Source of the DNA: Haloparvum sedimenti
GTDB lineage: Archaea; Halobacteriota; Halobacteria; Halobacteriales; Haloferacaceae
Direction of reading: 5' to 3'
Assembly (NCBI RefSeq): GCF_001462205.1
Contig: NZ_LKIR01000135.1
Span: 44,015-106,206, forward strand
DNA: 62,192 bases
The notes under the pieces are model-generated. The model saw only the letters and a list, made by a program, of their open reading frames with translations. It was not told where the DNA came from and made no database searches. Within the stretch, counting starts at the first letter, position 1. Each line of letters opens with the position of its first letter. The translations under genes were made by a program, and so were the position numbers. Shown here piece after piece: positions 660 to 37,345 of the stretch.

Positions 660-1210
660 CGGTCGGCGCGCGCGACCCTGACGCGCGCGAGGGAGGTCGC
701 GGGCCGGCCGCATTGCGGTGCGGTGCTGTTCGCGGTCGGCCCGCGGCCGAGGTTGGGGAGGAGTGAGGCTGCCGTGCGGCCGCGGTGCTGTGCGGGGCGG
801 TCGCGGTGGGTGGGACTGAAAGGGGCAGTCGGCTCGATCCGGCCCCGGCGCCGCAAGCGACGCGAGAGCGAAGCACTCGCTAGTCTGAGACTTCGTCTCA
901 GGCACCGCAGCGGGCGTTGTCTCCAGCGTCGCCGTGAGCGCGGTGGGGAGCGAACGGCGGCTCGAAAATCTCCGATTTTCGGCGCGCTACTGCACGCTGG
1001 AGGCCAGCGGGACGCGGTTTGTCCCGCGCGGCGGAGAGCGAGGAGCGCAGAGTGTGCCGCGTTCCCGCGAGGAACGAGCGGGAGCCCGTGAGTCGCAGCC
1101 CGGCAGCCCGCTACCGCAGGCAGCCCGGACCGTCTCACGACGGCCGGTCGAGCCGGCTGGGGCTTTCGAGGTGTTACTGCTCCGATCAGCAGGATCAGCA
1201 GGATCAGCAC
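660..1210 (+). repeat. Dispersed structured intergenic element, copy A
   Basis: This roughly 550-bp element shares long blocks with copy C (36888-37345, same strand), copy B (26276-26715, opposite strand) and degenerate copy D (10400-10605). In order it shows: CGGTCGGCGCGCGCGA; a 13-bp hairpin (698-710 with 733-745, one G-U pair); GGGACTGAAAGGGGCAG (812-828); an inverted-repeat unit (825-844); a long stem CTCCAGCGT/ACGCTGGAG (921-929 with 994-1002) enclosing CGAAAATC/GATTTTCG (963-970 with 974-981); a GCGGGAC/GTCCCGC hairpin (1007-1013 with 1021-1027); the second inverted-repeat unit GGCCGGTCGAGCCGGCTGG (1142-1160); a GGGGCTTTC tail; and a 9-bp GATCAGCAG triplet repeat (1184-1210). Hairpin arms differ from those of the other copies yet still pair. 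No consistent reading frame is shared. It lies between the 3' end of tatCt and the 5' end of the PIN ATPase gene. Confidence 0.75.
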
Positions 1211-26148: not shown

Positions 26149-26275
26149 TGCTCCGCGGACGGTCTCGGGATTTCTGAGGTCTGGTGGCGGAGACGGCCGA
26201 TCGCGCGAGCATCGCCCGGTTCGAACGCTCCCTCAGACAGAACGTGTTCCGTCGCCGATCCGCCTGCTCTGAACA

Positions 26276-26450
26276 GGACCACCCAGAAAGCCCCAGCCGG
26301 CTCTCCCTGCTACTGATCTAGATCTGTTGCAGATCCTGCTACGCTGGACAGCAGCACCCAGAAAGCCCCAGCCGGCTCTCCCTGCTACTGATCTAGATCT
26401 GTTGCAGATCCTGCTACGCTGGACAGCAGCACCCAGAAAGCCCCAGCCGG
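26276..26450. repeat. 75-bp tandem repeat at the end of element B
   Basis: The segment starting ACCCAGAAAGCCCCAGCCGG occurs at 26281, 26356 and 26431: two full 75-bp units and a partial third. Each contains a GATCTAGATC palindrome and GATCCTGCTACGCTGG. Seventy-five is a multiple of three, so the minus-strand frame through it stays open, but no other sign of coding is present. Confidence 0.85.
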
Positions 26451-26715
26451 CTCGACCGGCCGCGACACACTCTGCGCTCCTCGCTCTCCGCACAGCCCGC
26501 TGCGGTGCTTGAGGCGCCGGGGCCGGATCGAGCCGGCTGCCCCTTTCAGTCCCACCCCGCACAGCACCGCAACCGCCCCGCACAGCACCGCAACCGCACC
26601 GCAGCCTCACACCTCCCCAGCCTCGGTGGTGGCGCGGCCGCGAACCGCACCGCACAGCAGGCGGCCGCGCCACCGCCTCCCTCGCGCGCGTTCCTCGCGC
26701 GCGCCGACCGCCTGA
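26276..26715 (-). repeat. Dispersed structured intergenic element, copy B
   Basis: Minus-strand copy of the family of copies A and C, shorter in the middle. On the minus strand it reads CGGTCGGCGCGCGCGAGGAA, then a perfect 14-bp hairpin (26628-26641 with 26661-26674), GTGAGGCTG, a 22-bp tandem of GCGGTTGCGG/TGCTGTGC, GGGACTGAAAGGGGCAG, the first inverted-repeat unit (26521-26539), GGAGAGCGAGGAGCGCAG, the second inverted-repeat unit (26444-26461) and the GGGGCTTTCTGGGTG tail. The central CTCCAGCGT stem of A and C is missing. It fills the 583-bp gap between the convergent GNAT and pgk genes; 26149-26275 shows nothing recognisable. Confidence 0.75.
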
Positions 26716-36887: not shown

Positions 36888-37345
36888 CGGCGGTCGGCGC
36901 GCGCGAGGAACGCGCGCGAGGGAGGTCGCGGGCGGGGCGCGATGCGGTGCATTGCGGTTACCGCGCCCCGCCCGCGGCCGAGGCTGGGGAGGGGTGAGGC
37001 TGCTGGGCAGTGTGGTCGCGGTGCGGTTGCGGTGGGTGGGACTGAAAGGGGCAGTCGGCTCGATCCGGCCCCGACGACGTAAGCACTCGCGCCGGGCGGT
37101 GTCTCCAGCGTCGCCGTGAGCGCGGTGCGGAGCGAACGGCGGCTCGAAAATCTCCGATTTTCGGCGCGCCACTGCACGCTGGAGAGCGGCGAGACGCGGG
37201 TTGTCTCGCCAGCCTGAGAGGCGCGAGCGCGCAGCGAGGGTCCCGCGAGCCTGCCGAGCGGGACGACGGCAGTCGCAGCCCGGCAGCCCGCGACTGCAGG
37301 CAGCCCGGACCGTCTGCCGGTACGCGGCCGGTCGAGCCGGCTGGA
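36888..37345 (+). repeat. Dispersed structured intergenic element, copy C
   Basis: Plus-strand copy closest to A. Its order is: CGGTCGGCGCGCGCGAGGAA; a perfect 15-bp hairpin (36927-36941 with 36962-36976) with a GCGGTGC loop; GTGAGGCTG; GGGACTGAAAGGGGCAG (37038-37054); the first inverted-repeat unit (37051-37070); the stem CTCCAGCGT/ACGCTGGAG (37103-37111 with 37176-37184) enclosing CGAAAATC/GATTTTCG; the hairpin GGCGAGAC/GTCTCGCC (37188-37195 with 37203-37210); a GTCCCGC/GCGGGAC hairpin; and the second inverted-repeat unit GGCCGGTCGAGCCGGC (37326-37341). It fills the 616-bp gap between convergent prf1 and ribE; nothing else is seen in 36813-37428. Confidence 0.75.

Follow-up and report, generated by a model that had tools for sequence, protein, structure and literature searches.

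The window analysed here, a 62,192-nt stretch of the Haloparvum sedimenti genome (contig NZ_LKIR01000135.1, positions 44,015 to 106,206), carries three copies (A, B and C) of a repeated intergenic element, each with a long hairpin whose arms differ from those of the other two. This raises the question of whether the hairpin is selected as a folded strand and to what kind of element it belongs. A first-pass annotation had described the arms as covarying and knew of no named RNA family to which the element would belong.

The reported hairpin and the layout of the element

Inspection of the sequence confirmed the arms proposed for all three copies. In copy A, positions 698-710 (CGCGGGCCGGCCG) pair with 733-745 (CGGTCGGCCCGCG) with one G-U; copy B, on the minus strand, pairs 26661-26674 with 26628-26641 over 14 perfect bases, and copy C pairs 36927-36941 (CGCGGGCGGGGCGCG) with 36962-36976 over 15 perfect bases. 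Folding lengthened the plus-strand hairpins of A (695-748, arms 695-711 and 732-748) and C (36924-36979, arms 36924-36941 and 36962-36979) to 17-18 bp and added two pairs below that of B (26625-26677). Folding energy by itself was a weak witness, with z = -3.1 for C, -0.9 for A and -2.0 for B.

The loci of the same genome contain this hairpin 84 times. Every one of these copies pairs at least 12 of 16 positions, with a mean of 15.24/16, compared with 10.37/16 when a 5′ arm was set against the 3′ arm from a copy having different arms. The covariation is therefore genuine, and this pairing test excludes chance or simple GC bias, the rival that the first-pass annotation had itself named; the signal became stronger as more copies were aligned. 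The 5′ arms take 37 different forms, one class (GCGGCGGCGCGGCCGC) accounting for 27 copies. Because many of the copies belong to a small number of discrete arm classes, independent events are fewer than hairpin copies, and the lineage of the window by itself would not supply many independent covariation events. The distinct arm pairs of this genome contain 24 G·T and 9 A·C mismatches (p=0.014).

The reported hairpin is an accessory part of the element (module I), and the conserved heart is the adjoining downstream stretch of ~120 nt that starts with GGGTGGGACTGAAAGGGG (module II). Of the initial description, the structure was upheld; the hairpin, however, does not stand by itself as an RNA family and is an accessory module of a modular mobile intergenic element. 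In aligned copies of the genome, module I consists of a GCGCGCG...CGCGCGC hairpin, GAGGGAG, the reported hairpin and GAGGCTGGGGAGG. A linker rich in G comes next, then module II, which runs from GGGTGGGACTGAAAGGGG to GGGGCTTTC, and often a series of 75-bp tandem repeats of the end. The first hairpin was located from sequence and fold at 667-689 in copy A (plus strand; GCGCGCGC/GCGCGCGC, loop 7) and at 36898-36918 in copy C (plus strand), and from the fold at 26683-26703 in copy B (minus strand). The linker that joins the two modules of copy C can be read directly at 36981-37033 (plus strand; GAGGCTGGGGAGG...GCGGTGCGGTTGCGGTG), and its layout is repeated in most copies of the genome. The core motif GTGGGACTGAAAGGGGC lies about 57-65 bp past the hairpin in all three window copies; the genome holds 90 matches to it, 67 of them exact, and none to the reversed motif.

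Module II ranges from 121 to about 400 nt within this genome. Copy B has the uninterrupted form (26432-26559, minus strand; covariance model R1, 73.5 bits, E=3e-13). After it, the 3′ end unit (GAGCCGGCTGGGGCTTTC...) is repeated in tandem with a period of 75 bp (26228-26460, minus strand; repeat family D6), and this unit is also found in many other copies of the genome. In copy A, sequence and motif place module II at 808-1167 (plus strand), from GGGTGGGACTGAAAGGGG to GGGGCTTTC, with a large apical insert. That of copy C (37034-37342, plus strand) retains the 5′ GGGTGGGACTGAAAGGGGC and the 3′ arm GGTCGAGCCGGCT, its terminal GGGGCTTTC being degenerate and its match to R1 weak (E=0.03). The inserts in copies A and C are large because further hairpin modules are nested in the hairpin loops: the apex of module II in copy C holds the module TCTCCAGCG...CTCGAAAATCTCCGATTTTCGG...CGCTGGAG at 37102-37185 (plus strand), and in other copies of the genome a relative of it lies inside the module I hairpin loop or between the two hairpins of module I. 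This smaller module (CCAGCG...CGCTGG with CTCGAAAATCTCCGATTTTCGG) is likewise nested at the loops of larger hairpins at loci L006, L023, L051 and L057.

Two further stretches border the modules. Upstream of module I, a repeated stretch CTGCACTCACGGCGGGAGT...AAAAACGTTCGTC is found before many copies of the window's genome (loci L004, L020, L038, L041, L042, L046, L054 and L060) and may be a part, or the end, of the element in this lineage. At the start of module II, GTGGGAYTGAAAG (e.g. window 810-822) resembles the 3′ end of CRISPR repeats from haloarchaea and other archaea; no CRISPR array context was seen for it.

Fold and covariation of module II

Module II is a stem-loop of ~120 nt with the form GGGTGGGACTGAAAGGGG-arm...arm′-GGGGCTTTC, in which the ~10 bases past GGGGC differ nearly every time between genera and the bases before GGGGCTTTC change alongside. 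RNAalifold applied to 15 diverse module II sequences gave 32 pairs, 19 of them with double changes. In alignment A2, which comprises 15 sequences, the named structure paired 97.1% of cells, compared with 76.7% after shuffling, and the covariation score was 0.527 as opposed to 0.142. With the partner shifted by 1-3 columns, the score fell to 0.04-0.10.

We then calculated corrected mutual information for 65 non-redundant module II units of one length, with no gaps and no folding step. The top column pairs were the nested stems themselves: 24-110 through 35-99 in P1, 39-96 through 44-91 in P2 together with 57-78, and 61-75, 62-74, 65-71 and 66-70 in the apical part. Covariation is significant in an alignment that was not fitted to the structure, which is the mark of a new structured single-strand family. 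Like the structured RNAs in Rfam, module II keeps its fold through compensatory changes, but no curated covariance model matched it: in Rfam release 15 no match reached the family threshold, and lenient thresholds gave chance-level matches only, in agreement with the initial statement that no named family fits.

In the helices of the 65 units taken together, 2136 cells are Watson-Crick pairs. The remaining cells comprise 47 G·T, 5 A·C and 22 of other kinds, an excess of G·T over A·C on the sense strand with p=1.3e-9; in the P1 stem of 207 distinct arm pairs, G-T outnumbers A-C by 68 to 19 (p=1e-7). These tests count sequences and not phylogenetically independent events, although nearly every sequence has arms of its own. 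Because cruciform extrusion or template-switch correction would treat the strands alike, this asymmetry means that the sense strand folds alone, and selection acts on a single strand in its folded state, as the first-pass annotation had surmised. The loops that break up the stems are themselves fixed or nearly so: an internal loop with GGG opposite GGG (65/65 units), tandem G·A, an unpaired A, and an apical GNA triloop, whose closing pair is C-G in 53 and T-A in 7 of the 65 units. Because these mismatched loops persist, the stem is not being corrected as a DNA palindrome, which would have removed them.

The same two observations bear on the reading that the fold has no function and that template switching during replication (quasipalindrome correction) keeps the hairpins perfect in the absence of selection. 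The arms evolve fast and are nevertheless near perfect, as such a process would produce, and core deletions at the hairpin foot with 2-bp microhomology suggest that the hairpins form in DNA metabolism. However, correction predicts equal numbers of G-T and A-C, against which the ratio of 47 to 5 argues strongly, and it would hardly have spared the GGG/GGG loop and the tandem G-A. We regard this reading as improbable. A cruciform, in which both strands are exposed, likewise predicts as many G-T as A-C. We conclude that the secondary structure of the module II sense strand is conserved and upheld by compensatory change, which points to a use of the fold as such, as RNA or as single-stranded DNA.

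Distribution, mobility and loss of copies

Of the 171 genomes of the family, 52 contain the exact core motif, in 20 of the 28 genera, and the reversed motif has no match in these 171 genomes. With covariance model R1 at E<=1e-5, we found module II in 313 of 392 genomes and 78 of 95 genera of the order, with at most 9 matches counted per genome. Genera with the exact motif include Haloarcula, Halobaculum, Haladaptatus, Natrinema, Halorussus, Natronococcus and Halonotius. In the set searched, the genus of the window was represented by the window's own genome only, and the suggested link to Halorubrum was not borne out. For haloviruses, the phage collection contained no credible match. In 29 relatives from other genera, no match to the core motif was found next to aRF1 with up to 2 mismatches allowed, which, given their different gene order, shows only that the position of window copy C is not conserved. 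Model R1 offers a ready structured family for annotating haloarchaeal intergenic DNA.

How the element moves can be read most clearly from genome G070, in which four near-identical copies define the element ends GGTASTGTTTAGATWAGC and the inverted terminal repeat GGTASTGTTYAGATWAGC is present at both ends. One copy (locus L216) measures 377 bp and is flanked on both sides by the target duplication TCGAACCG; GGTGCGTGA and TGTGACAGC were recorded as target duplications of further copies. The same ends, with exact or near-exact duplications, also bound shorter forms, which measure 321, ~225 and ~62 bp. Target duplications served as the evidence of insertion in this genus in place of empty sites, since the flanking genes are non-adjacent in congeners and no clean empty site was found among them. 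Across the order, 29 candidate end pairs enclose module II, 11 of which have duplications matching at 7 or more of 8 positions, compared with 0 of 116 controls; the duplications measure 8-9 bp.

An insertion sequence of ~700 bp in genomes G056, G059 and G070 has the ends GGTAGTGTTCAGATAAGC and GGCGGTGTTCAGATAAGG and encodes a 211-aa IS6-type transposase (PF13610), whereas the element has no coding capacity and many copies. From the sequences of these ends, elements in the lineages with defined ends are best read as MITEs of the IS6-type insertion sequence, which could mobilise elements bearing its ends. Two inverted copies in G070 (L213 and L214 on C7, at about 1.577 and 1.814 Mb) have swapped ends, one with two right and the other with two left ends; unswapping them restores a perfect 8-bp target duplication, and a chromosomal inversion probably passed through these elements.

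It is commonly held that short mobile repeats need their ends only, and transposition by DDE enzymes does not require an internal structure such as that of module II. Here, compensatory change has preserved a fold of ~120 nt in hundreds of copies whose arms differ, across most haloarchaeal genera, and it becomes directly testable whether such elements have a function of their own, as RNA or single-stranded DNA. In form the element resembles a structured RNA or single-stranded DNA; in its movement it is like a MITE. Like MITEs, including the bacterial ERIC type (PMC2229807), it is short, non-coding, intergenic and multicopy, and in several lineages it has inverted ends, target duplications and ends in common with an autonomous insertion sequence. 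Unlike them, it contains an internal structure of ~120 nt with strong covariation across the order, and the copies of the window's own genome, in which a single match was found among the loci, lack IS6-type ends; the MITE features hold for several lineages.

Transposase-free mobile repeats with palindromes are known in haloarchaea from the PATEs, MITEs and SMRs of Haloquadratum walsbyi, in which one element can be nested in the palindrome of another (PMC3119063), as in the present element; our smaller nested hairpin module resembles the SMRs in Haloquadratum palindromes. Neither PATEs nor SMRs generate a target duplication, and inverted ends are lacking in PATEs (PMC3119063). The present element, having both in several lineages, falls outside the definition of the IS200/IS605-derived PATEs. 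It shares with REP sequences and REPINs, which are linked to RAYTs (PMC3116915, PMC3733652), the inverted hairpin doublets dispersed between genes, but its unit is ~120 nt instead of 20-40 nt and no GTAG/CGTC tag was seen. The window's genome has 4 Y1 transposase matches, none of them demonstrably linked to the element. A search of open papers on haloarchaeal MITE, REP and sRNA repeats turned up no previous account of the element.

Two candidate origins were rejected. One copy of the window's genome (L050), its module II core deleted, lies directly beside an IS200/IS605 tnpA-tnpB pair (236-1891), yet no common ends were seen. Long pairs of elements (e.g. L183-L188) were considered as transposase-carrying composites and have ordinary genes in between.

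Copies also evolve and disappear in place. In two species of one genus (G014 and G017; loci L185/L186), elements are retained at two common places. The left copy, between a thiolase gene and serS, has 4 P1 differences between the species, with pairing kept in 4/4, and two other units in one of these species are reduced to core-deleted scars, e.g. between GGGGC and CGGGGGC. Such a clean core deletion in a sister species means that single copies are dispensable. Resident copies are thus either held folded or lost outright. Scars of this kind in module II (e.g. GAAAGGGGCCGGGGGCTTTC) occur in L185/L186, L115, L117, L093 and L097, and the deletions apparently arise via 2-bp microhomology at the hairpin foot.

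Genomic context and candidate function

With a simple gene caller, 232 of 233 units lay outside predicted genes, and all 86 copies of the window's genome with callable neighbours lay between predicted genes. In this genome, 35 of the 86 copies sit between convergent and 12 between divergent genes, as would suit a bidirectional transcription terminator between convergent genes. Across the order, however, 24 convergent, 44 divergent and 88 codirectional contexts are similar to those of control intergenic regions (24/63/80), and no long T-run was found 3′ of the stem in the sequences inspected. The lack of a preference for convergent genes across the order speaks against a simple terminator role, and we consider it very unlikely.

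Where two units share an intergenic region, 52 of 53 are head to head, mostly 20-31 bp apart, and single units between codirectional genes lie 41 times in sense and 20 times in antisense across the order (p=0.01). We consider it probable that this is a haloarchaea-wide family of MITE-type elements whose fold acts in the transcripts of neighbouring genes. The family core is one ~120-nt module II, or two head to head, and in the lineage of the window an extra hairpin unit, module I, lies ahead of it. As RNA in transcripts that leave or enter neighbouring genes, the fold may shield the flanks from read-through or be bound by a host protein, and the head-to-head layout would provide one sense copy for each passing transcript from either side. 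What counts against RNA is the small size of the sense bias, which the genome of the window does not show or even reverses (15 sense, 24 antisense). Action at the RNA level in neighbouring transcripts is our best guess from the sequence data, and single-stranded DNA is a serious rival.

According to this rival, the hairpin would be exposed during replication, conjugation or strand displacement and bound or cut by a protein, in the manner of REP/REPIN sequences and their transposases, and it would serve mobility or genome maintenance. The head-to-head doublets recall REPINs, and the excess of G-T over A-C is compatible with any single strand. Single-stranded DNA, like RNA, accommodates sheared G-A pairs and GNA triloops, and loops of the C-GNA-G type, which is the predominant apical loop here, are known from very stable DNA mini-hairpins. 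Many haloarchaeal plasmids carry module II copies, in unannotated stretches of the plasmid records examined, and in 6 of 7 cases examined the gene of an RPA/SSB-like protein is adjacent. On the other hand, the definable ends with inverted repeats and target duplications resemble the products of DDE transposases acting on double-stranded DNA, and the few Y1 transposases in the window's genome are not demonstrably connected with the element. We hold the single-stranded DNA reading to be possible, with a probability well below that of action in transcripts.

For the favoured action in transcripts, the GGG tracts suggest a more specific form. All four (the tail GGGTGGG and both GGG of the internal loop) are present in 187 of 207 distinct units, compared with 2% in the background. 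Going by the sequence and by what is established about such folds, the distances between the tracts would leave room for a quadruplex that stacks on the GAAAG/CTTTC helix at one side and on the long stem at the other: the invariant GGG-T-GGG tail may dock into the invariant GGG/GGG internal loop and form with it a G-quadruplex of three layers between two helices, an arrangement that would be favoured by the high potassium of haloarchaeal cells. That a mobile element spreads, order-wide, a functional strand with a GGGTGGG quadruplex dock suited to molar potassium and acting in adjacent transcripts is a speculative proposal that we think unlikely in this full form. Should the quadruplex-hairpin junction be real, its natural distribution would be unusually wide, in organisms with a cytoplasm expected to favour quadruplexes.

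We also considered the RPA-like gene as a general partner of the element and rejected it: the association is confined to one plasmid locus, and the homologue in the window's genome has no full module II match nearby. At that locus, ~600 nt of highly conserved non-coding DNA with hairpins lie between the divergent RPA/SSB-like OB-fold gene and module II on many plasmids (L332 3530-4110, L333, L334, L335, L337 and L338), possibly a plasmid replication or transfer region. Its counterpart in the window's own genome is L339 960-1500, where the module was apparently cut by an insertion.
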